A stretch of DNA of 42,513 nucleotides, taken from positions 1 to 42,513 of IMG/VR virus record IMGVR_UViG_3300003690_003733. The stretch is one strand, 5' to 3'. The translations under genes and the position numbers were made by a program. Source of the stretch: a virus. Below are positions 13,891 to 41,416 of the stretch, in pieces. Positions within the stretch are counted from its first letter, which is position 1; each line of letters begins with the position of its first letter. Below the pieces are notes generated by a model. That model was not told the origin of the DNA. It made no database searches and was given only the letters and a program-made list of their open reading frames with translations.

Positions 13891-13929
13891 AGCAAACACT
13901 CCATTGATGTTGAAACAACCCCCGTTGTG

Positions 13930-27645: not shown

Positions 27646-28022
27646 CACGCACCGCCTTTCACAGCATTATCAAGATCGATCCAGACGCTTGCGCCGACGG
27701 CAACGGTGCCATCCGGATCCGCGCGGTCGCGCAGATCCTTGTGGACGGCTTCGAGAACGGCGCGCAGGCTGTCGGTTTCCGCCCTTGCTTTGACGCACAT
27801 TTCGATCAGTTCTTCGTTCTCGTGATGAATCGATCTGACCCGCTGGTCCGACTGATGTAGCGCCTCCTGCATCGCCTCAAGCTCTGCGACAAGGGCCAGA
27901 ACATCCCGCCAGTAAAGATCAACGCGCGTAACACCATCTACTTCGCCAGTCGACCCAAGCCAGACGTTGTTGAGCAAGCCATCCAGATCACGGAACTGGG
28001 CTATTTTCTCGAAAGCTTTCAT
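27645..28022 (-). CDS. Coiled-coil early protein
   Basis: 125 aa. The central part (ALVAELEAMQEALHQSDQ, HHENEELIEMCVKARAE) is a coiled coil. The N-terminus has FRDLDGLLNNVWLGS. It is translationally coupled to both the BRO-N antirepressor before it and the next gene. Function unknown. Confidence 0.65.
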   Translation of the reverse strand: MKAFEKIAQFRDLDGLLNNVWLGSTGEVDGVTRVDLYWRDVLALVAELEAMQEALHQSDQRVRSIHHENEELIEMCVKARAETDSLRAVLEAVHKDLRDRADPDGTVAVGASVWIDLDNAVKGGA

Positions 28023-28804
28023 CGTACATCACCCTCCCAAACAACACGGCCAAGCACGGCCCCGACGGGGATGTGCCAATGCACCCCCGAGTCAAAAATC
28101 ATGCACCGGTCGAACCACGATTTGAGCGGCGGTTCATCCAGCACGGTGACAACTTTCGGAAATTCACCATCTTCGACCTGCAGCACCACGGCCCGGTCGC
28201 CACGGCTCAGGCGATAATCGCACGTATCGACAATCACCATCCGGTTGCCGATGCGAAACACCGCATGCCCGTCCATCAGGCGCGGCATCGGATCGTCGGG
28301 CTTGGTCAATGGCGGCATCCTGCGCGGGCTTTGCGCCGCGATCATCGGGCCGATCTTGTCCATGATCAGCGTGACCACATCGCCCACCACCTGCTGGCGC
28401 AAGGCGGTCAGATCCGGCAGCGCCTCACCATCCGGGGAAGACTGGGCCGCCGGGGCCGCTTGTGCCTCAAGCACATCAAGCACCCAGCGCCGGAACGCCT
28501 TGGCCCGGTCCGTCTTCGCCAGCATGGCGATCAACTGCGCCCCGCGTGGGCTAAAGACGCGAACCGCGGCTGGTTGGATTTGACCCCTCAAGCCCAATTT
28601 GGTCTTAAGGGCCATTCCATCGGTGAATTCGTCTTTATACCGGTTGAACAGCTTGGAAATCTTGCTGGCATCGGAATACCCCAAAGCCCGCGCAATGTCC
28701 GGCCCGGTCAGCCACGGCACCCCGTCGCGGTCGATGATCGATAGTTCGGTATCTTGGAAAGTGAGCTTTTCGGGCAGATTCCGCCCATGGTCATGATTAG
28801 GCAT
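28019..28804 (-). CDS. BRO-N-type antirepressor behind a C4-like leader
   Basis: 261 aa from the ATG at 28804. Residues about 15-105 form a BRO-N domain (VPWLTGPDIARALGYSDA, FSPRGAQLIAMLA, FRRWVLDVLEA). The C-terminal half (about 170-258: MDGHAVFRIGNRMVI, PPLKSWFDRC) is shared with the gene at 40095-40988. The open frame runs 170 codons further upstream through the leader, but the ATG with GGAGG spaced 6-8 nt upstream is the likely start. That GGAGG lies next to the b2 element, so translation is expected to be blocked by the antisense segment. Confidence 0.8.
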   Translation of the reverse strand: MPNHDHGRNLPEKLTFQDTELSIIDRDGVPWLTGPDIARALGYSDASKISKLFNRYKDEFTDGMALKTKLGLRGQIQPAAVRVFSPRGAQLIAMLAKTDRAKAFRRWVLDVLEAQAAPAAQSSPDGEALPDLTALRQQVVGDVVTLIMDKIGPMIAAQSPRRMPPLTKPDDPMPRLMDGHAVFRIGNRMVIVDTCDYRLSRGDRAVVLQVEDGEFPKVVTVLDEPPLKSWFDRCMIFDSGVHWHIPVGAVLGRVVWEGDVR

Positions 28805-28871
28805 GACAGCCTCCGTTTGAACTGGGTTAACCAACCACCGGAGACGCCAATCCCTGGTGGCCGGACGCGCA

Positions 28872-29042
28872 GGATTGGCGTTACCACCAAACGGAGTGGC
28901 GGGCCGCAAGGCCCTCCCACGCGCCCGACCATAGGAAAACCGCGCAAAAGGACTTTTGGCGCGGTTCGGACGCCGTTTGACAGACAGGACGCCAATCCCG
29001 GCCACGGATTTTGCCGTGACTGCCCGCACCTGTGGCGCGGAT
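28872..29042 (-). ncRNA. C4-type antisense RNA / leader of the BRO-N antirepressor
   Basis: Order on the transcribed strand: a1 GGATTGGCGT (28998-28989), b1 CAAACGG (28979-28973), a hairpin with AACCGCGC / GCGCGGTT arms ending in TTTTCC (28966-28938), a second hairpin GGGCC-TTGC-GGCCC, b' CTCCGTTTG (28896-28888), a' ACGCCAATCC (28881-28872). Then come a2 GGATTGGCGT (28853-28844) and b2 CAAACGGAG (28819-28811) just before the ATG. b' and a' are complementary to b1/a1 and to b2/a2 over 7-10 nt without gaps. This is the C4-icd-ant plan of phages P1/P7. The RNA ends are inferred. Confidence 0.7.
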
Positions 29043-29048
29043 GAAGGG

Positions 29049-29077
29049 ACTATACGCCCGCCTGTCGTTCGCGTCAA
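29049..29077 (-). promoter_or_regulatory. Sigma70-type promoter of the first C4-type leader
   Basis: TTGACG (29077-29072) and TATAGT (29054-29049), spaced by 17 nt, 5-6 of 6 matches in each box. The start point would be near 29042, just before the leader's first hairpin. It is strong by sequence and so suits constitutive antisense RNA synthesis. Confidence 0.75.
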
Positions 29078-29099
29078 TATTGCAGATACTGGACGCCCG

Positions 29100-29328
29100 G
29101 ATTGAGCGTACAGGGTCGCCACCACATCAGATTGACGATCCGGGCAACTACGAACGCAGTTATACGTGCTGCGCTCCACACCCGGACGGTCAATTTGACC
29201 GTCTCGAAACCCGCAGAAAACCGCACCCGCCGCCCACACCCCAATTTTGGGCGTACGGGCAACTACGCAGGCCGCGCCAGCACCCTCAAAATGGGGGTGC
29301 TGGCCGATATTGGAGGACGCAAAGGCCA
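29100..29328. other. Gap with palindrome, direct repeats and a stem
   Basis: No supported gene. It holds a perfect dyad GACGGTCAA-T-TTGACCGTC (29185-29203), a 12-nt direct repeat CGGGCAACTACG (29141-29152, 29256-29267), and a 9-bp stem CCAGCACCC / GGGTGCTGG (29277-29303) right after the 29329-30168 gene. The stem lacks a T-run. These may be regulator sites for the promoter at 29049-29077 and the end of the neighbouring gene. Confidence 0.4.
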
Positions 29329-30168
29329 TCATTTCGCACCCTTGTCGACAAGGCGTAGCACGTTCTGACCACCGGTCTGTCGGTCAAGGCGGTCCTTGAG
29401 CGGCCCCCAGCCGCCCTTGGCCAGCCATTCGTTGATCGCCTCTCGCGGGAACAGCTTGCGGCCATAGACATCACGATGGACGGTAAAGCGCGTGCTGCAC
29501 TCGCAATAACGGGTCAGGGCATTGCTGACAGCCTGCACAAAGCCGCGCGGACGTTTGGCAACCCCGCGCTCGACGGCGACCTGCAAGGCCGGAATGGCGG
29601 TGACAGCCCCCATGCGGGGATCACGCGCAAGGCGATCCTCGATCATGCCGTCAAGCCGGTCGTCAAGCGCCTTGATGATGACTTTCTTAAAGATGCCGCC
29701 AATCACCCGTTCGACATCCGGCGAAAGGCCGGTGACCAGCCCGTCAAGATCATCCCGCAGGATGGCTGGTTGTGCTGCGACACCATGCGACCAATAGGCC
29801 GACAAGGCTCGGTAGCATTCGCGCTGGAACATGATGACGCGTGTGCGCAAGCTCGACCGGACCCGTGACGCATCGATCTTGAACAGCCAGCCTTGCAGCA
29901 TATCAAGCGGCAGAGCGGACATTTCACGCAACCGGCCATCCTCGGCAACCGTTCGTGTCACACGAACGGTTGATGACAGAACGGGATCACGCTTGACCTT
30001 TTCGAACTGACCATTCCAGGCAATCCCGATCGCTTCGCACACACTGCGCAGGGCGACATAAGGCGTACCATCGACCTCAAAAGTCGCGATCTGAGAACCA
30101 TGGAAGTCCAGCGAAATCACTTCGTTGCTGGACAGATTGTCGTTCATTGCGGTATTCTGAGCACTCAT
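29329..30168 (-). CDS. P22-type antirepressor, second copy
   Basis: 279 aa. P22_AR_N features (LDFHGSQIATFEVDGTPYVA, LRSVCEAIGIAWNGQ) and a C-terminal half (GAVTAIPALQVAVERGV, PRGFVQAVSNALTRY, HRDVYGRKLFPREAIN, WLAKGGWGPLKDRLDRQ) nearly the same as the gene at 13072-13890. It may bind CI or another repressor. A 25-bp perfect palindrome lies inside its coding sequence at 29947-29971. The start 30168 is an ATG. Confidence 0.85.
   Translation of the reverse strand: MSAQNTAMNDNLSSNEVISLDFHGSQIATFEVDGTPYVALRSVCEAIGIAWNGQFEKVKRDPVLSSTVRVTRTVAEDGRLREMSALPLDMLQGWLFKIDASRVRSSLRTRVIMFQRECYRALSAYWSHGVAAQPAILRDDLDGLVTGLSPDVERVIGGIFKKVIIKALDDRLDGMIEDRLARDPRMGAVTAIPALQVAVERGVAKRPRGFVQAVSNALTRYCECSTRFTVHRDVYGRKLFPREAINEWLAKGGWGPLKDRLDRQTGGQNVLRLVDKGAK
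29947..29971. repeat. 25-bp perfect palindrome inside the second antirepressor gene
   Basis: Arms AACCGTTCGTGT and ACACGAACGGTT around a single central C; the region encodes TVRVTRTV. The paralogous gene at 13072 does not conserve it. It could be an operator of a large dimer or a cruciform target. No palindrome of this length and perfection was noticed elsewhere in the window. Confidence 0.5.
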
Positions 30169-30240
30169 TGCAAACGTCCTTTCATCTGTTGCAATACCGC
30201 CCCGGCCCGCATAGCCGGGGCATTCCTTTTCAAGGCAGCG

Positions 30241-30294
30241 TTATCGCCGCCAAATCATCATCCAGAAGATAAAAAGCGCCATCGGAACTGGCAT
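30241..30294 (-). CDS. Possible 17-aa membrane peptide
   Basis: A 17 aa frame (MPVPMALFIFWMMIWRR) begins at 30294, overlapping the stop of the preceding gene as TGATG, after GGGGCGG. It is hydrophobic with a basic tail. Such tiny coupled peptides exist, but length alone makes this uncertain. The rest of the gap (30169-30240) has a GCCCCGGC / GCCGGGGC stem. Confidence 0.25.
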   Translation of the reverse strand: MPVPMALFIFWMMIWRR

Positions 30295-30644
30295 CACCGC
30301 CCCACCACAAGACCGGTTTTGACACCATCAATGGTGTGCGACGTGGTTTTGATGCGGATCGGCTCGATCGGCACCGGGCCGGAGCCATAGGGGTCGATGA
30401 TGTTGTCATCGTCGCCAGGGATATCGACCGACACCGTCAAATTGAGAATCCCGAAGTCGGCAGCCTTGACCCGCACATCATCGACCGGGGCAAACAACTG
30501 GCGTGAGCCGCCGGTTTTCTTGCACCGAATGGTGGCGACATGCCGCACACCGCCCGTAACAACAAGATGATCGACGGCCTTCCAGAAGTTTTCCATGTCG
30601 GCCTTATCGTCATCAGATACCTGTTCGAAAACATCCCAATTCAT
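30294..30644 (-). CDS. Unknown early protein
   Basis: 116 aa from the ATG at 30644 (MNWDVFEQ). SDDDKADMENFWKAVDHL is a helical N-terminal part, followed by a beta-rich domain (RHVATIRCKK, LNLTVSVDIPGDDD, VKTGLVVGR). It overlaps the next gene upstream by 4 nt (ATGA). A longer frame upstream is not supported. No known family. Confidence 0.65.
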   Translation of the reverse strand: MNWDVFEQVSDDDKADMENFWKAVDHLVVTGGVRHVATIRCKKTGGSRQLFAPVDDVRVKAADFGILNLTVSVDIPGDDDNIIDPYGSGPVPIEPIRIKTTSHTIDGVKTGLVVGR

Positions 30645-30988
30645 GCCGCACCCCGCTGTGGTTCGGTATCGTTGGCGGCCAGGCGGGTGACGTGGTCGGT
30701 ATCGTCTGACATATCCATGACCGTAATACCGCGCTTGCGGGCATAGGCCAGTTCGGCCTGCGCGCCGTCTGATTGCTGCCAGCCCTTGAGCAGGCACAGC
30801 GCATTGGCATGGCGGACCATGGCAAGGCAGATATCCATATAGGCTTCCTCATTCATGCCCGCTGGCACGGCATGCGGATTGAGCACGATGTAGCCCTTGG
30901 CGGTCAGGTATTTCGCCATGGCATCAAAGGCCGGTTTGTTGCCCGCCGGCATGCCGGTGATCGGACCTGCGATATAGATGATGGTCAT
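30641..30988 (-). CDS. DUF4406 / deoxyribosyltransferase-like protein
   Basis: 115 aa. MTIIYIAGPITGMP at the N-terminus, NPHAVPAGM and CLLKGWQQSDGAQAELAYAR are the DUF4406 motifs, related to nucleoside 2-deoxyribosyltransferases. It may act on nucleotides or cap-like phage DNA modifications, but the activity is unproven in phages. It overlaps both neighbours by 4 nt. Confidence 0.85.
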   Translation of the reverse strand: MTIIYIAGPITGMPAGNKPAFDAMAKYLTAKGYIVLNPHAVPAGMNEEAYMDICLAMVRHANALCLLKGWQQSDGAQAELAYARKRGITVMDMSDDTDHVTRLAANDTEPQRGAA

Positions 30989-31359
30989 TGGGCTTCCTCC
31001 GCCTCTTTGGCCTTGGCAGCCTTACGGTCAAGGCGTTCGATCTCGGCAACGATCAGGGCACCGGCCTTGACCAGATCACGGCGGCGGTCGGTGGGCTTTA
31101 GCCAATCGACGTGCCACGGCCAATTTGCACGGTCCGTGTAAGGGACACCGCTGGACCCAAACGAGTCCATTACCGACCTTTCCGGCCCATCAGGCCAACC
31201 ACCAAGCAACGCATAAACACTGGCAGCACGAGCCATCTCACCATCGTCATGCGTGTCATCATGCTCTGGCGTCCAGCCCTCCACCAATTGCTGGCGGGCG
31301 CGTTCGAGTTCGATATCAAGCAGGGCCTGATTTGGGCAAAGCGGGGTTGATTTGGTCAT
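30985..31359 (-). CDS. Common phage early protein (HDDxHxxGE type)
   Basis: 124 aa from the ATG at 31359. DIELERARQQLVEGWTPEHD, GEMARAASVYALLGG, WPWHVDWLKPTDRRRDLVKA and ALIVAEIERLD form a widespread phage family of unknown function. A start 40 codons upstream would overlap the next gene; the chosen ATG overlaps the upstream stop. Confidence 0.75.
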   Translation of the reverse strand: MTKSTPLCPNQALLDIELERARQQLVEGWTPEHDDTHDDGEMARAASVYALLGGWPDGPERSVMDSFGSSGVPYTDRANWPWHVDWLKPTDRRRDLVKAGALIVAEIERLDRKAAKAKEAEEAQ

Positions 31360-31775
31360 CACGCAGCCTTTCCGATTGCAGCACGCGCGGCTTTGGCACC
31401 GGCGCACGGGGTTTTGGGGTTGATCACGCGGTAGTCGGGCAGCTTGCGCGCGGTGCCTTCGCCGTCGAACCAGGCGCATTTGGTGCGGCCATGTTCGACC
31501 CAGGACACCAGCCAGCCGGTTTCACCATTGAGGTCCGCCGCACTCGGCGATTTCATCACCGGGTTGCCGCCAAAGCTTTCGCCCGATCCGCGCACCGGCT
31601 GATGGAGCACCAGCACCGGCAAATCATAATTGACGACCTCGTAACTGCGGCGAATGGCAAAGCCGCCAAGATCAAGATCATTGATGATCTGGCGCGCGGT
31701 ATCGTCGCAGCCGAGATTGTCATTTGCCGCATCGCGCAGCGTGGTCAGGATGGTTTTGAAGGATGCCTCGCTCAT
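31359..31775 (-). CDS. Unknown early protein
   Basis: 138 aa. The N-terminus is helical (FKTILTTLRDAANDN), the middle has DLGGFAIRRSYEVVNYDLPVL, and the C-terminus WLVSWVEHGRTKCAWFDGEG. No family is recognised. It is coupled to the genes on both sides by 4-nt overlaps. Confidence 0.65.
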   Translation of the reverse strand: MSEASFKTILTTLRDAANDNLGCDDTARQIINDLDLGGFAIRRSYEVVNYDLPVLVLHQPVRGSGESFGGNPVMKSPSAADLNGETGWLVSWVEHGRTKCAWFDGEGTARKLPDYRVINPKTPCAGAKAARAAIGKAA

Positions 31776-32107
31776 GCCACACCGCCTTGCATGCTGCTGC
31801 GGCTGGCGTTGTCGTTGGCACCGGTGATATAGGCCGACTGGAACTTGGCACCCGGGTAATCGATGCGATGATCAAGCAGCCCGGCGCGTTCAAGCACCGC
31901 ATTGGCGATATCGACGGCCTGACAGACCATCACCGGGCGGTCATTGATCACGATGACGTGGCGGCCATTGCCGACATAATGGACACGCCGGTCGATCGCC
32001 ACCCGGATCACCGCAATCGCCCGCCCGCGCGGACCATCAATGGTGTTGGTATTGGCTGCCGCAATCAGCGCATCACGCAGTTCTGCAGAGATTTCAGGCT
32101 TGGTCAT
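31772..32107 (-). CDS. Unknown early protein
   Basis: 111 aa from the ATG at 32107, which has AAGGG 9-10 nt upstream. The central part RHVIVINDRPVMVCQAVDIAN with VHYVGNG looks like a small beta-alpha domain. A GTG three codons upstream is an alternative. Function unknown. Confidence 0.65.
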   Translation of the reverse strand: MTKPEISAELRDALIAAANTNTIDGPRGRAIAVIRVAIDRRVHYVGNGRHVIVINDRPVMVCQAVDIANAVLERAGLLDHRIDYPGAKFQSAYITGANDNASRSSMQGGVA

Positions 32108-32249
32108 GTCACTCACCCTTCATGGCATGATGGAATCGGATCAAGCAATTTGCAGATTTTGCAATTTGCCATAAGGCGGAAGAACCGGGCGCTGCAGAGT
32201 GCGGACAACACGGTTAAAGGAGCAAACCGCCCGGCCTTCCTGTTGCCTT

Positions 32250-32284
32250 AAGCCCGCCCCGGTCTTCAAACCGGGGTCGGGCTT
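32250..32284. terminator. Strong stem-loop in the 32.1-32.7 kb gap
   Basis: AAGCCCG-CCCCGGT (32250-32263) pairs with ACCGGGG-CGGGCTT (32270-32284) around a CTTCAA loop. There is no clear T-run on either strand, so it could be a terminator, processing signal or RNA structural element. Confidence 0.4.
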
Positions 32285-32294
32285 CTCTGGCATA

Positions 32295-32465
32295 TCAAGG
32301 CGTTTTGCCGTGCCACCAAACAGGCCCCTTAGGTCTGCGGTGAAGGCTTGAGGAACCCGCTGGCGGGTCAGATCCGGCGGCTTGTTCACCGTCCGGGGCG
32401 AAGGCGATCACCGACCGTTGCATCAGGCGGGCGATCACCATCAGAATCAGGGCAATTACAATCAC
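32295..32465 (-). CDS. Possible small one-helix membrane protein (GTG start)
   Basis: 56 aa starting at GTG 32465 with AAGGGCGGAACGAT upstream. The N-terminus (VIVIALILMVIARLMQ) is a membrane helix and the C-terminal part is Pro/Gly-rich and polar. It fits the leftward early operon and fills most of the gap between 32107 and 32688. Confidence 0.45.
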   Translation of the reverse strand: MIVIALILMVIARLMQRSVIAFAPDGEQAAGSDPPAGSSSLHRRPKGPVWWHGKTP

Positions 32466-32513
32466 ATCGTTCCGCCCTTTCGTTTGCTCGTATCGGCTTC
32501 AAACTCAGCCGGT

Positions 32514-32578
32514 GCCGCCCAGTGCGGCTTTTTCACCCGAAAACCCCGACCCTGCCTTCAAGCGGGGTAACGGGGTTT
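32514..32578. terminator. Two opposed terminator hairpins
   Basis: GCCGC-CCAGT-GCGGC followed by TTTTT (32514-32533) faces rightward. AAACCCCG (32541-32548) pairs with CGGGGTTT (32571-32578), leftward, with an inner GC stem and TTTTCGG after it, ending the methyltransferase transcript. No rightward gene precedes the first, so it may stop antisense reading. Confidence 0.5.
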
Positions 32579-32687
32579 AAAGGTCTGGTCGCGGCCCCCG
32601 AAGGCTTAGGGAGGAGAGGCCCACCGGATGACGGGGTTTTGCGAAACTCAGGGCACTCGCCGTCTGATCCCTGTCTGCCCTATCGGT

Positions 32688-33401
32688 TCACACCGCCCCG
32701 GCAGCCGGGGTATCGAACAAATCCGCATCAATCGGGTTGTCGTTCTGGTAATTGATGACCCGCGCACCGGGGGCCGGTTGAAACAAATCAAGGTTGTCCA
32801 TCTGCGGTTTGGGCAGCAGGTCGTGCAGGGTTTCATCCCGCGACCAGTCGCGATGCCAGCCAAACCAGGCGCATTCCATTGTCGGGCGATCAAGGCCAAG
32901 GAAATCAGGCCGCCAAAGCAGCTCGCACTTCCATTTCGGACGATGGCGGCGATACAGCCCTTGGCGCGATGCCGCATGCCAATAGGTCGATTTCAGCAAC
33001 AGCCAAAGCTCCTCGACCTGCATCCGCATCGCATGTTCGATAAAGCAGGCAGGCAGGTCTTTGTCATAGGGCGGGTTGGTGATCAGGACCGATGCCTTGG
33101 GCCGCATCACCGACAGGAAATCCACCCCGCCAGCGCCATAGCCGCGATCGATCAGATCAGTACCGATCACCTTGCAGCCATGGGCCTCCATCACACGGGC
33201 CGGAACGCCATCACCACACGACATATCCCAGATGCGCTTGCCTGCCAGATGCGGAAAGCGACGGAACAGGGCTTCGAACACTTCGGGCGGGGTCGGGTAG
33301 AAATCATCGGCCTGTCGGGTGCGGTCGCCCTCGGCAACCTCGCGCCGACCGCCCGACATCATGGCCCCAAGACCGGTCTGGACTTTGGCAAGGGCGGTCA
33401 T
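32688..33401 (-). CDS. DNA methyltransferase (NPPY)
   Basis: 237 aa. DMSCGDG (about residues 59-65) is the SAM-binding motif I and ITNPPYDKD (NPPY near 109-112) is motif IV of amino-methyltransferases, probably N6-adenine. TPPEVFEALFRRF and the later YWHAASRQGLYRR are typical of phage orphan methylases. It may protect phage DNA from host nucleases or mark replication. The ATG at 33401 overlaps the upstream stop as ATGA. Confidence 0.9.
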   Translation of the reverse strand: MTALAKVQTGLGAMMSGGRREVAEGDRTRQADDFYPTPPEVFEALFRRFPHLAGKRIWDMSCGDGVPARVMEAHGCKVIGTDLIDRGYGAGGVDFLSVMRPKASVLITNPPYDKDLPACFIEHAMRMQVEELWLLLKSTYWHAASRQGLYRRHRPKWKCELLWRPDFLGLDRPTMECAWFGWHRDWSRDETLHDLLPKPQMDNLDLFQPAPGARVINYQNDNPIDADLFDTPAAGAV

Positions 33402-34069
33402 TCCTCTACCCCCCGATAATCCGGCAGCCACAGAAACAGGCCGCAGGCCTTGAGCCGCGCGATGACCTTGGGCAGCATCTTGTGCGCCGAGGGTTCGATG
33501 GCGGCGAACTGATCGCCATGCAGGGCGCGGATATGGTCAAAGACCTCTGCCGCCGCGCGTTCGAAATCGGTGGTGAACATCGCCTGGGCGGCATATCGAT
33601 CCACCCAGAGCATCAAAAGGAAGATCACGGCAAACACCTTGAGGCTGTGCCAGCCGCCATCATCGCCAACCTGCCGGTCAAGCAGCACGGCCAGAACGCT
33701 ATCGGCCCCGTGGTCCATCTCGCGGCGGAAATCATGGAACTGCGACGGGGTCATCAACCCGGCATAACAATCCATATCGGCGCGAAAGGCGCGCGCCAGC
33801 CGATCGTTATCGCCATCCCCGGCAAAATCGGGCGAGACATAAACCGCCCAGAACAGGCGCGGGAAAATCGCGGCCTCGGCCACATCGATTTCATGGACCT
33901 TGCGCGGGCGGATGACCTCGACCGCGACAGGCCGCGACCGGCCATGCGATAAACGCTGGCGCACATCAGCCATGGTCAGCGTGCCACGCGGCAGGAAATC
34001 ATTGGCCGGGGTCGGAACTTCGCGCGGGGCCGGATCAGCCAAGGGGATGAAGTGCTTGGCGGTGCTCAT
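33398..34069 (-). CDS. Unknown early protein with a hydrophobic segment
   Basis: 223 aa. The N-terminus is Pro-rich; middle residues (about 150-165, LKVFAVIFLLMLWVDRY) form a possible membrane helix, with an acidic region and basic stretches around it. No family is recognised. It overlaps the methyltransferase and the next gene by 4 nt each. Confidence 0.6.
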   Translation of the reverse strand: MSTAKHFIPLADPAPREVPTPANDFLPRGTLTMADVRQRLSHGRSRPVAVEVIRPRKVHEIDVAEAAIFPRLFWAVYVSPDFAGDGDNDRLARAFRADMDCYAGLMTPSQFHDFRREMDHGADSVLAVLLDRQVGDDGGWHSLKVFAVIFLLMLWVDRYAAQAMFTTDFERAAAEVFDHIRALHGDQFAAIEPSAHKMLPKVIARLKACGLFLWLPDYRGVEE

Positions 34070-34299
34070 AGCGATTCCCCCGCCGCCCGCAGGGCCTTGG
34101 CAAAATCCATGGTTTCCTTGGCAGCCGGATTGATCTTCACAACGTCGTCCATCGCCTGGTCATCCATCACCATGATCGATTGATAGATTTCCTCGCCACT
34201 GACATTGACGTTCGGATCAAACCTTGCCGCCTCGATCAGCGACTTGCGCAGGAAATCATTGCCTGCCTTGATCAGGTCTTTAAGCGCCGGGTTGCTCAT
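34066..34299 (-). CDS. Small early protein
   Basis: 77 aa, helical (LKDLIKAGNDFLRKSLIEAA, EEIYQSIMVMDDQAMDDVV). No known family. 4-nt overlaps with both neighbours suggest one transcriptional and translational unit with the HTH gene upstream. Confidence 0.6.
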   Translation of the reverse strand: MSNPALKDLIKAGNDFLRKSLIEAARFDPNVNVSGEEIYQSIMVMDDQAMDDVVKINPAAKETMDFAKALRAAGESL

Positions 34300-34841
34300 T
34301 GCGCACCTGCCCGTTTGGGAAGTGCGGCCACATTGCCCTTGCCGGTGCTGCCCGATTTGCCGGGCGCATCATGGCCATGCAGAACCTTGTCGAGGCGGTC
34401 GCGCATCTGGCGGGCCCAGCGCATCTGCTCTGCCTTTTCCATATGGTCGACCCGGCCATCTTCCATGTGGCGGATGAACATCTCGGTACAGCTTGCCGCC
34501 GCGTGGGCGACTTCCTGAAAACTGATTTCCTCTGGCGACATTTCCTTGGCACCGCCGATCCCGATCAGCGAAAGCAACCGGTTGGAAAAGCTGACCGGCA
34601 GGACCGCCATGACCGCAAACAAATCAGCACCGCGCGGAACCGTTTCTCCATCGCGCCAGGCTTCGACCGTGCGAACTTTGTTTTCCTTGCCGATGGCGCG
34701 TGCCACCTCGGCCAAGGTCATTGCCTTGCCTTCGCTTTGATAGGTGCCGACATGGTCGTGAAAGGCCGATGTAAACACCGCCTGAAACAACTCGGCACCC
34801 GGCGCATCAAAACGATGGGCATTTCTGGTCGCATTCGACAT
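34296..34841 (-). CDS. HTH regulator of the early operon (CII-like place)
   Basis: 181 aa. Residues about 40-95 contain an HTH pattern (MTLAEVARAIGKENKVRTVEA, WRDGETVPR) followed by a helix (LFAVMAVLPVSFSNRLL). The remaining part is helical with a basic C-terminus. As the second gene of the leftward early operon after the Cro-like gene it takes the place of a CII-type or early regulator. Confidence 0.7.
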   Translation of the reverse strand: MSNATRNAHRFDAPGAELFQAVFTSAFHDHVGTYQSEGKAMTLAEVARAIGKENKVRTVEAWRDGETVPRGADLFAVMAVLPVSFSNRLLSLIGIGGAKEMSPEEISFQEVAHAAASCTEMFIRHMEDGRVDHMEKAEQMRWARQMRDRLDKVLHGHDAPGKSGSTGKGNVAALPKRAGAQ

Positions 34842-34930
34842 AAACTTTTACCTCGATCCATGAGATGGTGTGAAAGTCAGGGATGCGGAAACACCCGCCG
34901 CACCCGGCATTTGGTCAAAGCCCGAACCTG

Positions 34931-35203
34931 TCAGGCCGCCTCGGTCTGGTCTTCACCCCGATCAACCGGGGTGGCCTGCGGTTCCGATGACGTTTCAGTG
35001 TCATCATTGGCGTTGGCCATGAATTCCGGGGGGATGACCTGCTCGAACTTGCGGATGGTATTCGCGGTCGGGTTCCAGTCGGTCGTGTCAATATTGCGGA
35101 TTGCTGCTTCATTGACCCCGGCCAGACAGGCGAACCGGTAACGCGCCAGATTGTACTGGCGGCGATAAGCCCGAATGCGGTTCAGATTTGCATCAATGGA
35201 CAT
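34931..35203 (-). CDS. Cro-like repressor
   Basis: 90 aa from the ATG at 35203, preceded by AAAAAGG. NLARYRFACLAGVNEAAIRN and NPTANTIRKFEQVIPPEF form a helix-turn-helix like those of Cro/CI proteins. It lies divergent to CI and is first in the leftward early operon. The open frame further upstream includes promoter DNA and is not used. Confidence 0.8.
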   Translation of the reverse strand: MSIDANLNRIRAYRRQYNLARYRFACLAGVNEAAIRNIDTTDWNPTANTIRKFEQVIPPEFMANANDDTETSSEPQATPVDRGEDQTEAA

Positions 35204-35235
35204 TTGTAAGTGCCTTTTTCTCTGATGATGCTCGA

Positions 35236-35265
35236 AGCATATTCGGCATTTATTACTACTGTCAA
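35236..35265 (-). promoter_or_regulatory. Leftward early promoter and operator region
   Basis: TTGACA (35265-35260) and TATGCT (35241-35236) with an 18-nt spacer drive the Cro-like gene. The surroundings (35204-35354) include CGGCA...TGCCG arms (about 35245 and 35284), the ACGA-TAAT-TCGT dyad and an AGTACGAAT motif that also occurs before the KilA-N gene at 36149-36163. These are probable CI/Cro sites. A rightward promoter for CI (TTACTA-17-TACTAT, 35253-35281) is weak. Confidence 0.6.
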
Positions 35266-35354
35266 CGATAATTCGTACTATTTGCCGATAAACTTCTGAA
35301 CAACCAAAGAGCACAATGCCGAAAAACAACAACAGGACATTGGAGCAGGATGAA

Positions 35355-36023
35355 ATGACAGACCCGATAGAGGACCAACGCCAGAGCTTTAACCAGTGGC
35401 TTGATCAGACAGGGCAAAGCGTTCTTGCCGTTGCCAAAAAGGCCGGCATCAATGAATCTGCCCTGCGACATTACAAAAACGGCAAGACCCGTGATCTGCG
35501 GATGGAGAACAAACTCAAGATTGCGGAAACGCAACGCGTCCGCCTGACCGAAATCTTTGGCGAATCAGCAAAGCAGTTTACAAGCCCGCCCCCGGCAAGC
35601 CTTGCGGCATCAACAGGCGTACCATCGGCTGAACCACCCTTGTTTCGGGACACGGTCCCGGTCGTGGGACGAGCCCAGAATGGGCGCATCATTGCGACCA
35701 TGTACCCGATTGCCCATGTCGAGGCCCCGCAGAACCTTACGCTTTCAGGGAACGTTTATGCCGTCCGGGTCGCCAACACCCTGAACATGCCCCGGCTTCG
35801 GATGCGCGAAACTGTGATCTGTTCGCCTGATGACCCCGTGGCACCGGGCGAAGACGCCGCCATTCACGACATAGAAGGCGAGATCCATCTGATGCGATGC
35901 CTTGAGAACGATCAGAACCACGGGTTCACCGGCACGATGTATGGTGACGAGTCCAAAAAAATCACCATCCAGCCCGACCGGATCGTCAATGTCGCCCGCA
36001 TCGTCGCGATCTATCCGGCGTAA
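35355..36023 (+). CDS. CI-like repressor with inactive S24 peptidase domain
   Basis: 222 aa from the ATG at 35355 (GGAGCAGGA upstream; an ATG 13 codons earlier is possible). Residues 10-60 are an HTH (VAKKAGINESALRHYKNGK). Residues about 98-220 match an S24/LexA-type domain in order and spacing. The catalytic Ser place (G-D-S-M-x-P in active members) reads N-T-L-N-M-P, the Lys place (before RCLE) is Met180, and the Ala-Gly cleavage place reads Asn-Gly. It should bind operators but not cleave itself. This fits induction by antirepressors. Confidence 0.85.
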   Translation: MTDPIEDQRQSFNQWLDQTGQSVLAVAKKAGINESALRHYKNGKTRDLRMENKLKIAETQRVRLTEIFGESAKQFTSPPPASLAASTGVPSAEPPLFRDTVPVVGRAQNGRIIATMYPIAHVEAPQNLTLSGNVYAVRVANTLNMPRLRMRETVICSPDDPVAPGEDAAIHDIEGEIHLMRCLENDQNHGFTGTMYGDESKKITIQPDRIVNVARIVAIYPA

Positions 36024-36148
36024 AAGGTGGGAAACACCCACTATTTACAGCACCGAGTCTCAAAGAGCATTCCCCCACTGAAGGATAGGAAGACGCAATA
36101 AACTACGATTGCAACGTCACCGGTTCGGCATTTGATCCGAATTAATCG

Positions 36149-36208
36149 TTGACAAGTACGAACATTAACGACACCCTTGCGGCATCCTCAACCGCAAAAG
36201 GGTGTTTT
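36149..36208 (+). promoter_or_regulatory. Regulated leader of the KilA-N antirepressor
   Basis: CGTTGACA (36147-36154) with AGTACGAA just after resembles the left early promoter's -35 region; no good -10 follows. A hairpin lies at 36171-36205: ACACCCTT-GCGG pairs with CCGC-AA-AAGGGTGT, then TTTT (36205-36208). It covers the probable ribosome site AAAAGGG and ends 4 nt before the ATG. It could act as terminator, attenuator or translation lock. Confidence 0.55.
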
Positions 36209-36211
36209 GCG

Positions 36212-36994
36212 ATGAATGCACATCTGAATTCCGTGAACGACAATGCTGTGACCACGCTTGATTATAACGGCGCGGTCATCCGTATTGATGATGACAAGCT
36301 GAACCTGACCGATATGTGGCGGGCGGCTGGCAGCCCAGAGAACCGGGAGCCTTACAATTGGGCACGCAAGGAAGGCACCGCCTTTATTGACGCATTCGCC
36401 ATGAATCTAAACCTGCCTGACAGTCAGGTTTTAACTTCAACACGTGGCAAGAATGGCGGCACGACCGCCCACTGGCAGATCGGCTTGGCCTATGCCAAGT
36501 ACCTGTCGCCTGAATTTCATATCTGGTGCAACACGGTTGTCCGTGAACGCATGGAAGGCGGACCCGTGCCGACCGACATGCACCGTCACCTGAATGATCC
36601 GGGTGCGCTGCGCGGATTGCTTCTGACCTATACCGAAAAGGTGCTGGCACTCGAAAGCCAGCTTGAGGAAGCACAGCCCAAGCTTGATGGCTTTGACCGC
36701 ATCGCACAGGCCGATGGCACCATGTGCATCACCAATGCAGCCAAGGTCTTGCAGATGCGGCCCAAGGATTTGTTTGCATGGCTGGCGCAGAACGGCTGGA
36801 CATACAAGCGCACCGGCTCCGCCACGTGGCTCGGCTATCAGTCGAAAACCGCGCAGGGGCTGCTTGAACACAAGACAACCACCGTCTGGCGCGCCGATGG
36901 CTCCGAAAAGGTTACAGAGCAGGTGCGCGTTACCGCCAAGGGCCTGACCCGCCTTGCCACCCTGATCAAACCCGCATTGAAAGCAGTGTCATGA
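36212..36994 (+). CDS. KilA-N / KilAC antirepressor
   Basis: 260 aa. The KilA-N domain spans about residues 15-110 (LNLTDMWRAAGSPENREPY, WQIGLAYAKYLSPEFHIW). The KilAC domain is about 150-250 (FDRIAQADGTMCITNAAKVL, DLFAWLAQNGWTYKR, VRVTAKGLTRLATLI). Such two-domain proteins antagonise phage repressors or regulate DNA. It lies right after CI, in the rightward operon. The ATG at 36212 follows the hairpin described above. Confidence 0.9.
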   Translation: MNAHLNSVNDNAVTTLDYNGAVIRIDDDKLNLTDMWRAAGSPENREPYNWARKEGTAFIDAFAMNLNLPDSQVLTSTRGKNGGTTAHWQIGLAYAKYLSPEFHIWCNTVVRERMEGGPVPTDMHRHLNDPGALRGLLLTYTEKVLALESQLEEAQPKLDGFDRIAQADGTMCITNAAKVLQMRPKDLFAWLAQNGWTYKRTGSATWLGYQSKTAQGLLEHKTTTVWRADGSEKVTEQVRVTAKGLTRLATLIKPALKAVS

Positions 36995-37242
36995 CCACGG
37001 ACACCCGCAAGGAAATCATGGCCCGAATGCTCGACATTGCCGAGAAGGCCATAGAAGCCGGTGGCAGTTACGAAACCGCCATTCGCGAACACTTCCCTGA
37101 CGTTCCGGACGAAGTCCTGACAGAGGTCTGGATAGAGATCGAGGACAACAAGACGGAACGCTGGTGGCAGAAAATGGAACGACGGGTCGCCAGCAACCTG
37201 ATTGAGTTTCCACACCCCAAGGAAGATGGAACGAAACGATGA
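36991..37242 (+). CDS. Small protein, unknown
   Basis: 83 aa, helical and acidic/basic (MARMLDIAEKAIEAGGSYET, WQKMERRVASNLIE). It overlaps the KilA-N gene by 4 nt (ATGA) and the clamp-like gene by 4 nt. No domain is recognised; it is part of the rightward operon. Confidence 0.65.
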   Translation: MTTDTRKEIMARMLDIAEKAIEAGGSYETAIREHFPDVPDEVLTEVWIEIEDNKTERWWQKMERRVASNLIEFPHPKEDGTKR

Positions 37243-38054
37243 CCACTCCACAGAAACAAGCCGACTTCATTCCGGCCAACCGCCGCATCAGCGTATGCGC
37301 AAAGCGGTTCTATGCTGCACTGCAATTCATCAGCCACGAGGAAACCCGCTATTACCTCAATGGTGTATTCATCGAACCGCACAAGGATGGCGGGGTTATC
37401 ATGGCCGCGAGCGACGGGCACACGCTCGCCGCAGTACGCGACAACTCTGCACACATCGCAGGCGAAAGCGGTTGGATATGTTCCGTGCCGAAAGGCCCGT
37501 TCATCGCTGCATTAAAGCGCAAATCTGCAGGAACTTTGCATTTCGTCGGCAACAGCGTCTATCTGACCGACGCCGTTCTTGGGCAGGATGCAACCGATCC
37601 GGCATTCGATCCGACACTAATTACCGCGCAACACAACGCCATCGCTTACGCAAAACCGGTTGATGGCACGTTCCCTGATTGGCGGCGGCTTATTCCCAGC
37701 CCGCAAGCCGAGGCCAGCACCCGGATTGTGTTGGATGGCAAACACTTCAACAAGTTCAATAAAGCAATCTCTGCCTTGGCGGATGACGGAACGCCAGAAC
37801 TCAGCATCGCAATGCCCCGCGACATGCTATCACCCATCGTAATTCAGTCAGGTCGCGCCAAGGACTTTTTTGGCCTTGTGATGCCAATGCGGGAACATAC
37901 CAAAGCGGAGGCAGATCCGGCATGGCTCAAACTGCCCGCCAAGCAGGAACGCAAACCGGCACCGGCCAACGATGCCAAACCCGCCAAGGCAGGGAAGAAC
38001 CGCCCGGCACTCGGGCTGAAAACAAAGCCCGTCGAGAAACCGGACGCCGCCTGA
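37239..38054 (+). CDS. Sliding-clamp-like protein (DnaN-type domain)
   Basis: 271 aa. YYLNGVFIEPHKDGG followed by AASDGHTLAAVRD is the characteristic segment of DNA polymerase III beta-type clamp domains, and the later FPDWRRLIPS also fits. The C-terminus is a Lys/Ala/Pro-rich tail. It probably forms part of a clamp for phage replication or modulates the host clamp. It is shorter than DnaN (about 370 aa), so it may have two of the three domains. It starts 4 nt inside the upstream gene. Confidence 0.7.
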   Translation: MTTPQKQADFIPANRRISVCAKRFYAALQFISHEETRYYLNGVFIEPHKDGGVIMAASDGHTLAAVRDNSAHIAGESGWICSVPKGPFIAALKRKSAGTLHFVGNSVYLTDAVLGQDATDPAFDPTLITAQHNAIAYAKPVDGTFPDWRRLIPSPQAEASTRIVLDGKHFNKFNKAISALADDGTPELSIAMPRDMLSPIVIQSGRAKDFFGLVMPMREHTKAEADPAWLKLPAKQERKPAPANDAKPAKAGKNRPALGLKTKPVEKPDAA

Positions 38055-38311
38055 TGCCGCGCCCGTCATCCATTTTACTGTTTGGCTGCGCTGCCCTGAT
38101 GGCCCTTGTGCTCGGGCAGCAGGCCGCCATCAGCCTGCAAGGAAAAGACCCATGGAACCGACCAACATCAAGCATATCCGGATCGGCAGTCGTCCTGTCA
38201 TCGAGATCAAGGCAACCCGCCCCGCCAACGATATCCACGGCGGCCCGATCAAACTCCACATCCCCAAGGATGTACTGGATGATCACGCCAAGCGCCACGC
38301 CGCAGGACTAG
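38054..38311 (+). CDS. Possible small membrane protein overlapping the next gene
   Basis: 85 aa frame starting at the ATG that overlaps the clamp stop as TGATG. The first 33 residues (MPRPSSILLFGCAALMALVL) look like a signal/membrane segment. The rest is Ser/Pro-rich and overlaps the 38152 gene by 160 nt, where it looks like an out-of-frame shadow. A shorter real product is possible only with a different stop. Confidence 0.3.
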   Translation: MPRPSSILLFGCAALMALVLGQQAAISLQGKDPWNRPTSSISGSAVVLSSRSRQPAPPTISTAARSNSTSPRMYWMITPSATPQD

Positions 38312-38556
38312 CCACCGAATGCATTGCCCTGCCCGCCGCCAATGAGGCCATCAATGTCTTGATCGGCCCCAATTGCGGGCAGCGCGAAGACCTTCTGGGC
38401 ACCATCAAACCGGCCCGCTGCACCTTGGCCCTTGATGCCAAGCGCATCCTGGTCAAGTTCGCCTATGGCGAGGGTGAGCCAGGCACCAGCGCCGCATGGG
38501 TCACCCTCTCCCAACTCACCTTCCCCAACCGCAACGCCGATTGCGAGGTGATGTGA
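38152..38556 (+). CDS. Unknown protein
   Basis: 134 aa. Beta-rich with KHIRIGSRPVIEIKATRP, IKLHIPKDVLDDHAKR and the later LVKFAYGEGEPGTSAAW. A ribosome site AAGGAAAAGACCC precedes the ATG. Its stop overlaps the ASCH gene start as TGATG. No family is recognised. Confidence 0.65.
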   Translation: MEPTNIKHIRIGSRPVIEIKATRPANDIHGGPIKLHIPKDVLDDHAKRHAAGLATECIALPAANEAINVLIGPNCGQREDLLGTIKPARCTLALDAKRILVKFAYGEGEPGTSAAWVTLSQLTFPNRNADCEVM

Positions 38557-38942
38557 TGGACTTCCCAACCAAAGCAATCAGCATCCGCCAGCCGTGGTGC
38601 CATCACATCCTTTTTGATGGCAAGGATATCGAAAACCGCGACTGGCAAACAACCTATCGCGGCCCGGTCCTGATCCATGCATCAGCATCCTTCGACGGTT
38701 ATGCAGATGAACGCCGGGCATTTACCGCCAAGCATCCGGAAAGCCATCTCGGCGGCATCGTCGGGATGGTCGAAATCACCGACTGTGTCAGCAGCAGCGA
38801 CAGCGAATGGTTCTATGGCCGGTTCGGGTTCGTGCTGCGCAACCCCGTCCCGCTTGATTTCATCCCCTGCAAGGGCGCACTCGGCTTCTTTACGCCGGTC
38901 TTTAATCGTTCCCTTTTGAAAGCGCGGAAGGAAGCAGCATGA
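38556..38942 (+). CDS. ASCH-domain protein
   Basis: 128 aa. ISIRQPWCHHILFDGKDIENRDW, TYRGPVLIHASASFDG and GIVGMVEITDCV are the ASCH-domain pattern. These domains bind RNA or modified nucleosides and are common in phages. The start at 38556 is the ATG that overlaps the upstream stop. Role unknown. Confidence 0.85.
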   Translation: MDFPTKAISIRQPWCHHILFDGKDIENRDWQTTYRGPVLIHASASFDGYADERRAFTAKHPESHLGGIVGMVEITDCVSSSDSEWFYGRFGFVLRNPVPLDFIPCKGALGFFTPVFNRSLLKARKEAA

Positions 38943-39241
38943 CCCAGCCAACCTTTGACAGCCCGGTTGCCGCAAACCTCGACGTCGGTGCCTACGCGAA
39001 ACCGCCGGAATGGATCAAGGGCGGCAGCTATTGCCACAGCGAAGACTCAAAGATGGCGGGCCGCACGTCCATAACGATTGAGATTGGCGGGGCAGTTTAC
39101 CAATGCGCCGATCCGAACTGGTTTCGTCACCTGATTGATCAGGCCAACGCCGCCCTGACCAGCGCCGGATACCCGCCCCACGTCACCGCCGCCAACGACA
39201 CCGAAGGCGACGAAAGCAAACAGGAAGGATCAGCGGCATGA
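38939..39241 (+). CDS. Unknown protein
   Basis: 100 aa. WIKGGSYCHSEDSKMAG, TSITIEIGGAVYQCADPNW and HLIDQANAALTSAG are visible segments. No family is recognised. It overlaps both neighbours by 4 nt. Confidence 0.6.
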   Translation: MTQPTFDSPVAANLDVGAYAKPPEWIKGGSYCHSEDSKMAGRTSITIEIGGAVYQCADPNWFRHLIDQANAALTSAGYPPHVTAANDTEGDESKQEGSAA

Positions 39242-39834
39242 ACGAGAAAATTCTTTACAGCAGCCCCGAAGCTGCCGAACGCAAAGAGGTCACCGGCTGG
39301 GTTAGTGCTGATGGCCGTTTCTATGGCGATAACGAGCATTTGGCCCGCTGGGCTGGATGCACGCACATTCTTTGCCGGGAATGCGGCAAACACGAACACG
39401 AAAAAAGCTGGACGTGCTGCGAAACATGCCGCGACAAACACGTGATAGAGCGATACAACGCCAAGCCTTTTAAGGCATGGGATGGCGAACGGCTCTTTAG
39501 CTACAGCCACGAACGGTATTTCTTCGATGAACAGGAACTTATCGATTTCGCGCTTGAGCATAATGTGTTGCCCGGTGAAATGCGTCTGGCGATCTGCGAA
39601 CCCGACATCCTGAAGATGGTTGACTTTGACGATATCTTGGTCGATCGACTGCCCGAGGATCTATATCTGAGCGACATAGCCCCAGAACTGGCAGAAGCCG
39701 TCGCAAAGGTGAATGATATCATCCAACAAACCAAGCCCGTCTTGGCATGGAATCCCGGCAAATACCGGACCACCGTCACCGCCGCTGCCCTGATTGCAGC
39801 CAAGACCGCCAACCGAAAGGACACGGCGGCATGA
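39238..39834 (+). CDS. Zinc-ribbon-bearing unknown protein
   Basis: 198 aa. Residues about 40-75 contain CRECGKHEHEKSWTCCETCRDKH, a probable zinc site. The remaining part is acidic and mainly helical (FFDEQELIDFALEHNVLPG). It is the last gene before the second C4-type leader, whose promoter starts 6 nt after its stop. Confidence 0.65.
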   Translation: MNEKILYSSPEAAERKEVTGWVSADGRFYGDNEHLARWAGCTHILCRECGKHEHEKSWTCCETCRDKHVIERYNAKPFKAWDGERLFSYSHERYFFDEQELIDFALEHNVLPGEMRLAICEPDILKMVDFDDILVDRLPEDLYLSDIAPELAEAVAKVNDIIQQTKPVLAWNPGKYRTTVTAAALIAAKTANRKDTAA

Positions 39835-39839
39835 CACAC

Positions 39840-39868
39840 TTGACCGCGCAGAAAGATGGGCGTAGAAT
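39840..39868 (+). promoter_or_regulatory. Sigma70-type promoter of the second C4-type leader
   Basis: TTGACC (39840-39845) and TAGAAT (39863-39868), spacer 17 nt. The predicted start is near 39875. Its quality and spacing are like the promoter of the first leader, though the surroundings differ in sequence. Confidence 0.75.
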
Positions 39869-39874
39869 CCCGGC

Positions 39875-40030
39875 TGTCATGGACGCATCCATGACCGGGA
39901 TTGGCCTCCCGTCCTACACGAAGGCGCTCGAACCGCGCCCAACCTGTTGCTGCGCGGTTTTCTTATGGTCGGGCGTATGGGGGCACCTTCGGGTGCGCCG
40001 TTACCTTCGTGGCGGTAAGGCCAACCCTGT
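39875..40030 (+). ncRNA. C4-type antisense RNA / leader of the Rha-like antirepressor
   Basis: Order: a1 GGATTGGCCT (39898-39907), b1 CACGAAGG (39917-39924), AACCGCGC / GCGCGGTT hairpin with TTTTCTT, GGCACC / GGTGC hairpin, b' CCTTCGTG (40004-40011), a' AGGCCAA (40018-40024), then a2 AGATTGGCCT (40046-40055) and b2 CACGAAGG (40079-40086) immediately at the ribosome site. a2 sits in the loop and stem of a GATCAC / GTGATC hairpin. b' is a perfect complement of b1 and b2. The pairing letters differ from the first leader in b and partly in a, but stay complementary. A hairpin at 39866-39902 overlaps the start. The RNA ends are inferred. Confidence 0.7.
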
Positions 40031-40098
40031 ACGTCCGATCACCAGAGATTGGCCTCTCAGTGATCGGGTTAACCGATACACGAAGGGGACCGCAATGA
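39901..40098 (+). CDS. Possible Icd-like leader peptide gene
   Basis: 65 aa frame with a TTG start; its stop overlaps the antirepressor's ATG as ATGA, like icd-ant in P1. It includes ARFSYGRA, a segment also present (in frame with the antirepressor) in the first leader. Whether it is translated is unsure, since the RNA structure alone may explain the conserved sequence. Confidence 0.35.
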   Translation: MASRPTRRRSNRAQPVAARFSYGRAYGGTFGCAVTFVAVRPTLYVRSPEIGLSVIGLTDTRRGPQ

Positions 40099-40988
40099 GC
40101 GTACCAACCAACAGCCGGACTCTGTCCGCAGCCGACCTTGATTCCACCGATACCAAAGACCCCCGCATTCAGGACATTCGCATTGGCGAACGGCTTGGCA
40201 TGCGCCGACCGCGTGATATCAGACAACTGATTGATCGCAATCGGGCCGAACTGGAAAGCTATGGATCACTCGCGGTGCGGCACCGCAAACCGCAGAATGC
40301 AAGGGGTGGCGGTCGGCCTGCCGACGAATATTGGCTGAATGAAGCACAGGCATTATTGATCTGCACCTTTGCCCGCACCGATCGGGCGGCAGAGGTCCGG
40401 CGCGAATTGATCATGGTGTTTCTGGCATGGCGGCGCGGCAGCTTGCCAACCCGCCTGCCACGCTGGCACCCCAGCCGGGCGGACATGCGCGACATCAATT
40501 CGCGCGCCAGTCAAATCTTGCAAACCCGGTTTTCTGCGGTGCGCGATGCGCTGCTGGCCCAGATCAAGCAGGACCGCGCCGCCGGGCATGTGCGCCCGCT
40601 GTCGGATTACAGCGTCGAACCAACCGCACTGATCGCCGCCAATGATCCGGGGATGCCCGACCTTGACGATGGTCAGGCGCTTTTCATGATTGATGGCAGG
40701 CCCGTGCGGGTTGATTTCACCGCGCCCTATGCCGTGCCAAATGCCGATGTCATCGCGATCCCGGTGGCCGATGGCACCGGCCCGGAACGCTTCACCATCG
40801 AAGGCGACGTGCCCGCCCCAAGCTGGTTTGATCGCTGCCACCTTGCAAAGCCGCGCAATTCACGCGACCTTATACGACCGGTCGTTGTTGTGATCGGCAC
40901 TATTGTCAAGGAAGGTTGCGATGAAAAAACGCAGATGGATGACGGGGATGGCGTTGATCATCGGGGGTTTGACCATGACGGGATGTGA
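40095..40988 (+). CDS. Rha/KilA-like antirepressor behind a C4-like leader
   Basis: 297 aa from the ATG at 40095, preceded by GAAGGGGACCGCA. The N-terminal half (RPRDIRQLIDRNRAELESYG, GRPADEYWLNEAQALLIC, FARTDRAAEVRRELIMVFLA) is a phage regulatory/antirepressor module. The C-terminal half (GQALFMIDGRPVRVDF, APSWFDRC) is homologous to the C-terminus of the gene at 28019-28804. It is likely repressed by the antisense segment in its own leader. It overlaps the lipoprotein gene by 68 nt at its end. Confidence 0.75.
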   Translation: MSVPTNSRTLSAADLDSTDTKDPRIQDIRIGERLGMRRPRDIRQLIDRNRAELESYGSLAVRHRKPQNARGGGRPADEYWLNEAQALLICTFARTDRAAEVRRELIMVFLAWRRGSLPTRLPRWHPSRADMRDINSRASQILQTRFSAVRDALLAQIKQDRAAGHVRPLSDYSVEPTALIAANDPGMPDLDDGQALFMIDGRPVRVDFTAPYAVPNADVIAIPVADGTGPERFTIEGDVPAPSWFDRCHLAKPRNSRDLIRPVVVVIGTIVKEGCDEKTQMDDGDGVDHRGFDHDGM

Positions 40989-41236: not shown

Positions 41237-41416
41237 ATGCCGAAAAAGGCCACTGTCACCCAGGCAGAGGTCACCCGCATCATCAAGGCCGCCAATGCGT
41301 GCGGCCTTGATGTCTGCGAAATCGTTGTGACTGCTGATGGTGTGCGCCTGATTTACAACAAAGTTGACCGGCCTGTGGTCAACGATAACATTGTCGGCCC
41401 GAAACAATGGGACTGA
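41237..41416 (+). CDS. Small excisionase-like protein
   Basis: 59 aa (MPKKATVTQAEVTRIIKAAN, GLDVCEIVVTADG, VRLIYN), with GGAGG 6-10 nt upstream. Small basic proteins of this TQAEVTR...VxVxxxG pattern are commonly encoded directly before integrases in alphaproteobacterial prophages and may be excisionases. It overlaps the integrase reading frame's earlier possible start. Confidence 0.65.
   Translation: MPKKATVTQAEVTRIIKAANACGLDVCEIVVTADGVRLIYNKVDRPVVNDNIVGPKQWD

Follow-up and report, generated by a model that had tools for sequence, protein, structure and literature searches.

Why should one temperate phage carry two copies of the same antisense RNA with different recognition letters? This question is raised by the IMG/VR virus record IMGVR_UViG_3300003690_003733, whose full 42,513 nucleotides are referred to here as the window. 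Two leaders in it, one on each strand, contain a C4-type RNA whose elements b′ and a′ match flanking sites, a1-b1 upstream and a2-b2 downstream. Our answer is that the window very probably holds two C4-type switches in one temperate Thalassospira prophage, each ahead of its own antirepressor gene, with keys (the pairing letters) that diversified through matched changes and leader exchange. The layout, the Rfam membership, the matched letters and the duplex energies of cognate and swapped pairs are read from the sequence; processing, silencing, a decoy role and independence in the cell are what we infer from them.

Two C4 leaders with one layout

Both leaders follow the same order: a promoter-like site, a hairpin, a1, b1, a terminator, the C4 RNA with b′ and a′, a2, b2 together with the Shine-Dalgarno sequence, and the ATG of the antirepressor gene. 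At both sites in both leaders, the complementary runs are 7-9 nt long for b and 7-10 nt for a, and b2 takes in the Shine-Dalgarno sequence 5-6 nt ahead of the ATG. The predicted C4 RNA spans 75-77 nt in either case, with GG at the expected 5′ end. Covariance score, flanking complementarity and the position of b2 before an antirepressor gene identify both leaders as C4 antisense RNA loci (RF01695).

Leader 1 lies on the minus strand. Its promoter-like site (29049..29077, TTGACG-17-TATAGT) has 10 of 12 consensus matches, with 0.1 expected in shuffles. An isrK-like 5′ RNA (28933..29020; Rfam isrK RF01394, 53.3 bits, above the cut-off of 50) includes the 5′ hairpin (29020-29003), and is the setting for a1 (28998-28989, GGATTGGCGT, the same letters as a2), b1 (28979-28973, CAAACGG) and the terminator hairpin (28966-28938). 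C4 RNA 1 (28856..28930) starts at the GG where RNase P cleavage is expected and runs through CCACC; Rfam matches C4 at 28853-28936 with 59.6 bits (cut-off 45). Within it, b′ (28896-28888) lies inside CTCCGTTTG, and a′ (28881-28872) reads ACGCCAATCC. The a2 target (28844..28853, GGATTGGCGT) is a 10-bp complement of a′, and the b2 target (28810..28819, CAAACGGAGG) is a 9-bp complement of b′ that overlaps the Shine-Dalgarno sequence. Antirepressor gene 1 (28019..28804, ATG at 28804) encodes a Bro-N domain (Pfam, 4.4e-9) and matches the anti-repressor Ant PHROG at 1.4e-31.

Leader 2 lies on the plus strand, and its promoter-like site (39840..39868, TTGACC-17-TAGAAT) likewise has 10 of 12 consensus matches, with 0.4 expected in shuffles. 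The isrK-like 5′ RNA (39876..39964) scores 39.3 bits, under the isrK cut-off of 50. The 5′ hairpin (39876-39895) is followed by a1 (39899-39907, GATTGGCCT), b1 (39917-39924, CACGAAGG) and the terminator hairpin (39931-39959). C4 RNA 2 (39967..40043) extends from GG, again where RNase P cleavage is expected, through TCACC and scores 70.8 bits against the C4 model (match 39961-40046); its b′ (40004-40011) reads CCTTCGTG and its a′ (40018-40027) reads AGGCCAACCC. The a2 target (40047..40055, GATTGGCCT) is a 7-bp complement of a′. The b2 target (40079..40088, CACGAAGGGG, containing CACGAAGG at 40079-40086) is an 8-bp complement of b′ and overlaps the Shine-Dalgarno sequence. Antirepressor gene 2 (40095..40988, ATG at 40095) has a weak anti-repressor PHROG match (4.1e-5), and its product is a distant paralogue of antirepressor 1 (28% identity, E 2e-14).

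The two leaders are 66% identical across their aligned region. The original prediction described them as two C4-type switches with compensatory changes, and this is borne out by the Rfam matches and the matched letters: all the letters it quoted were found, at every copy and paired as claimed, and they shift jointly at b1, b′ and b2 with complementarity retained. Its statement that the conserved part is unchanged holds for the terminator stem (AACCGCGC...GCGCGGTT) and for GGTCGGGCG, which are identical, and fails for the terminator loop, which differs. The paired a changes it named are present, but it overlooked an additional, unmatched U-to-C change in leader 2, where a′ reads AACCC instead of AAUCC. 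The resulting A·C mismatch to its own a sites is the reason why the a2 helix of leader 2 has 7 bp, compared to 10 bp in leader 1.

We propose that each operon would be driven by its own promoter, with short transcripts ending at the terminator past a1-b1 and longer ones including the C4 RNA. The C4 RNA would then be excised, with RNase P as the probable enzyme and the conserved GG as its site. It would pair with a2 through a′ and cover the Shine-Dalgarno sequence at b2 with the b′ loop, keeping the antirepressor off in lysogeny. The upstream a1-b1 may also bind C4, serving as a decoy or as an arm of an alternative structure, as in the isrK system. Since their b keys differ and their a keys do so in part, each RNA would mainly silence its own gene, discrimination residing in b.

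Cognate and swapped pairing

How well do the keys separate the two RNAs? Self-structure dominated whole-RNA scoring of C4-target duplexes and left it uninformative; pairing was therefore scored as element-restricted duplexes, with proteins and kinetics ignored. At b2, C4-1 pairs with leader 1 at -15.3 kcal/mol and with leader 2 at -7.8, and C4-2 pairs with leader 1 at -10.4 and with leader 2 at -14.5. The same four combinations give -11.0, -4.5, -3.4 and -14.0 kcal/mol at b1, -17.2, -13.5, -12.5 and -16.5 at a1, and -17.2, -11.2, -12.4 and -11.3 at a2. Discrimination is thus seen for b at both sites, and a1 discriminates moderately. The expectation that cognate pairs should far outscore swapped ones was accordingly correct for b and wrong for a2 of leader 2, where the swapped RNA (-11.2) is as good as the cognate one (-11.3). 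On these sequences, the two switches are likely to be functionally independent of each other. C4-2 forms a 7-pair helix with the Shine-Dalgarno region of leader 1, which makes absolute insulation between the RNAs unlikely in this model.

Several observations weigh against this reading of two switches. Beside the sub-threshold isrK score of leader 2, a2 of that leader fails to separate C4-1 from C4-2. A rough correction for accessibility also renders the b2 helix of leader 2 unfavourable (+1.3 kcal/mol), because b2 folds into the mRNA; the predicted margins are therefore model-dependent. Self-folding of the a2-b2 mRNA makes single corrected contacts unstable. The corrected sum over the four contacts gives -10.4 and -15.0 kcal/mol for the cognate pairs and -2.3 and -5.3 kcal/mol for the swapped ones.

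How C4 keys change

To place the window pair, we assembled 152 C4 leaders, of which almost all come from other genomes, through searches spanning 1160 genome look-ups; genus- and family-level searches gave one identical set of 29 genomes. The leaders collected share the design of the window pair. C4 was carried by 62 of the 399 sampled genomes of the phylum, many with several copies. Complementary runs were longer in the leaders' own pairs than in re-paired ones (7.24 versus 4.75 nt at b2, 6.43 versus 3.99 nt at a2). Cognate complementarity at b1, b2, a1 and a2 was equalled in 0 of 5000 re-pairings; the leaders in our samples are not phylogenetically independent, and such permutations speak to specificity, not to rates.

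Two comparisons are cleaner examples of key change than the window pair itself. Leader 2 is 90% identical to its counterpart in another Thalassospira prophage (L005), and the differences are clustered at b1, b′ and b2: CACGAAGG in the window becomes CACAAGG in L005 at all three alike. Leaders L016 and L019, 2.4 kb apart in genome G213, are 95% identical; b1, b′ and b2 each differ by a single base, and the three changes match. C4 specificity would thus diversify via matched changes at these sites, with leaders traded between phages. The window and its relatives provide a clean natural case of key change in a phage immunity RNA, in which concerted substitutions alter three short sites and leave the remainder of the leader as it was.

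Two or three C4 leaders also lie close together, at spacings of 0.3 to 2.8 kb, in arrays at G213:C27 (L016, L019 and L020), G212:C1 (L012 and L017) and G739:C237 (L125, L134 and L146). Their orthogonality is mixed: the G739 array is clean, and L016 and L019 of G213 are one matched base apart.

Exchange is suggested by prophages with two slots. Three Thalassospira prophages, those of the window (G000), G005 and G021, run alike from an integrase gene through antirepressor 2, the repressor region and a methyltransferase gene to antirepressor 1. Slots 1 and 2 both hold C4 in the window and in G005, and hold sRNA-Xcc1 and C4, respectively, in G021. The slot-1 leader of G005 is 98% identical to that of the window (L002/L007), and the antirepressors downstream are just 59% identical, so RNA and gene seem to be exchanged partly independently; the slot-2 keys of G005 differ from those of the window. 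In G021, sRNA-Xcc1 has replaced the slot-1 leader, and the antirepressor is still 84% identical to that of window gene 1. For Xylella fastidiosa De Donno, two C4 matches on opposite strands, some 11 kb from each other, appear without comment in a published table, which places isrK and sRNA-Xcc1 beside one of them (PMC12189769).

Why the two keys differ

The original prediction held that the different letters serve to avoid cross-silencing within one genome, that is, that the two leaders diverged under selection for mutual insulation inside the prophage. Several matched b changes agree with this, as does the advantage of cognate over swapped b pairing by 4 to 11 kcal/mol; no key is common to both slots in either of two syntenic sister prophages, and the tandem triple of G739 is cleanly orthogonal. 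The survey speaks otherwise: co-resident pairs cross-pair like pairs from different genomes, with mean a+b cross-pairing of -16.0 kcal/mol within genomes and -16.2 kcal/mol between them. Genome-label shuffles gave unremarkable fractions (0.52, 0.36 and 0.79), with no excess orthogonality in co-resident C4 RNAs, at a power limited by cross-pairing being confined to about 8% of pairs everywhere. Neighbouring pairs in G828 and G213 (L016/L019) cross-pair nearly as well as they self-pair, and the two window RNAs have most of the a key in common. Selection against cross-silencing thus receives no support from the survey, and we regard insulation as an unlikely origin of the two keys: a sequence difference between co-resident switches need not imply selection for it.

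On balance we favour a reading in which the keys were set as phages diverged in immunity type, in the manner of P1 and P7, and the prophage acquired its two modules by recombination. The near-identical slot-1 leaders of the window and G005 ahead of divergent antirepressors point in this direction, as do the exchange of the G021 leader for sRNA-Xcc1 with its antirepressor kept and the published P1/P7 heteroimmunity through C4 (PMC12197685, PMC5320573). The difference in letters would then, more likely than not, reflect the hypervariable specificity of C4 and the swapping of modules between phages, not demonstrably mutual avoidance. A quite different possibility, that conserved coding sequence gave rise to the complementarity incidentally, comes from the frame upstream of the ATG: of the 23 alphaproteobacterial leaders compared, 14, including both from the window, keep it open from end to end (the open antirepressor frame spans 28019-29332 on the minus strand and 39747-40988 on the plus strand). 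Other such leaders have stops 3 to 26 codons ahead of the start, the changes at each of three separate sites track base pairing, and the covariance model fits both RNAs; on these grounds we rejected coding constraint as the main source of complementarity and consider it highly improbable.

sRNA-Xcc1 as a probable second C4-type switch

The RNA before the antirepressor in G021 (L009, 2860-2945, the same locus as L059) is RF02221, sRNA-Xcc1, instead of C4. Its surroundings reproduce the C4 layout: a1, b1 (CACAGA), a terminator-like hairpin, an RNA with b′ CCTCTGTGA and a′ TTTCGA, a2 TCGAAA, b2 TCACAGAGG and the ATG. The same layout was seen in sRNA-Xcc1 leaders L009, L055-L060, L168-L197 and L198-L317. 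Across 35 distinct genomic loci, complementary runs to the RNA's own flanks exceeded those to swapped flanks at b2 (6.49 versus 4.45 nt), b1 (6.60 versus 4.35 nt) and a1 (6.89 versus 4.41 nt), and the downstream a2 gave 5.78 versus 4.25 nt across 36 genomic loci; 0 of 20,000 permutations were as good at each of b1, b2, a1 and a2. A separate sample of at least 93 loci on viral contigs was drawn with an exact pattern. Among the viral loci listed, a b run of at least 7 nt was present downstream in 65 of 93 and upstream in 69 of 93, compared to about 11% of swapped pairs, and in 59 of the 65 the b2 match was followed by a start codon at a distance of no more than 17 nt (median gap 9). Here, too, 0 of 20,000 permutations equalled the observed matches. 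Pfam matched 8 of 10 downstream proteins to KilA-N, AntA, Rha, ORF6N or P22_AR, one of them under the curated cut-off, and PHROGs concurred for 9 of 10, partly the same proteins.

Rfam reports these loci as RF02221 alone, with no match to the C4 model and no clan link to C4. From the flanking complementarity, we nevertheless consider it likely that sRNA-Xcc1 functions like C4 and represents a second family of C4-type antisense switches. The gene downstream, as a rule a phage antirepressor, would have its Shine-Dalgarno sequence covered by the b′ loop, with a′ making a second contact; the upstream a1-b1 copy would sit ahead of a terminator, and the RNA may replace C4 in the same prophage slot. 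sRNA-Xcc1 has been described as an 88-nt small RNA with many predicted targets, borne by integrons upstream of symE and under HrpG/HrpX control (PMC2996969, PMC12444791, PMC12189769); these three papers give no cis target for it. We found no literature linking sRNA-Xcc1 to C4 in a search that covered papers outside subscription, and of our results this link has the greatest likelihood of being new. An RNA found in numerous proteobacterial genomes and viral contigs, which published work connects with integrons and plant virulence, would thereby gain a concrete, directly testable mechanism and a cis target.

Comparison with known systems

It is established that C4 acts as an antisense repressor of an antirepressor and that a handful of its letters underlie P1/P7 heteroimmunity (PMC12197685, PMC5320573), and multiple C4-like RNAs per genome have been published (PMC5320573); the window pair therefore adds to a known type. 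It resembles the C4 of P1/P7 (RF01695) in RNA fold, a′ and b′, the a1-b1 and a2-b2 targets, occlusion of the Shine-Dalgarno sequence, the antirepressor target and specificity held in few loop letters. Unlike P1/P7, the window has two differently keyed copies in one integrated alphaproteobacterial prophage; b2 sits immediately ahead of the antirepressor gene, and we identified no separate icd-like gene upstream.

The isrK read-through mechanism, too, has been published (PMC4825925). As with IsrK and orf45-anrP of Salmonella Gifsy-1 (RF01394), a short terminated 5′ RNA, here with a1-b1, precedes a read-through transcript with switchable translation, and the prophage-inducing anrP downstream can be likened in position to the window antirepressor (PMC4825925). 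In Gifsy-1, translation runs through orf45, whereas b2 in the window belongs to the antirepressor itself, and leader 2 scores below the isrK cut-off. The C4-like Group 1 sRNAs of Acinetobacter baumannii are likewise numerous in one genome and vary in their pairing segments; their targets were left open, whereas those of the window RNAs adjoin each RNA (PMC5320573). sRNA-Xcc1 shares with the window RNAs an outer stem around two hairpins, a loop b′ and a single-stranded a′ matching flanking a1-b1 and a2-b2, and a b2 before an antirepressor start, and it fills the leader-1 slot in a sister prophage. It differs in its conserved sequence (AATACAANACCCGNAAGGGGAAT) and in being cast by the literature as trans-acting and virulence-associated.

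The prophage and its other antirepressor genes

The window is a single prophage. Its minus strand carries the tail, head, terminase and replication genes, and an integrase gene lies at 41407. The closest named relative of the window is a Thalassospira genome; BLASTN against phages returned nothing beyond weak partial matches. A likely CI-type repressor gene (35316-36023) with a divergent small gene beside it was assigned by judgement of the sequence, without a family match.

Three further antirepressor-like genes, at 13072-13899 (-), 29329-30168 (-) and 36149-36994 (+), bring the antirepressor-family genes of this prophage to five; two of the three match P22_AR_N, and one has transcriptional-regulator and anti-repressor Ant PHROG matches. 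The gene at 13072-13899 sits amid structural genes, and the Rfam scan gave no C4 match upstream of it. A Proteo-phage-1 RNA (RF03044, 60.7 bits) at 32626-32710 (-), outside both C4 leaders, overlaps and trails the end of a methyltransferase-like gene.

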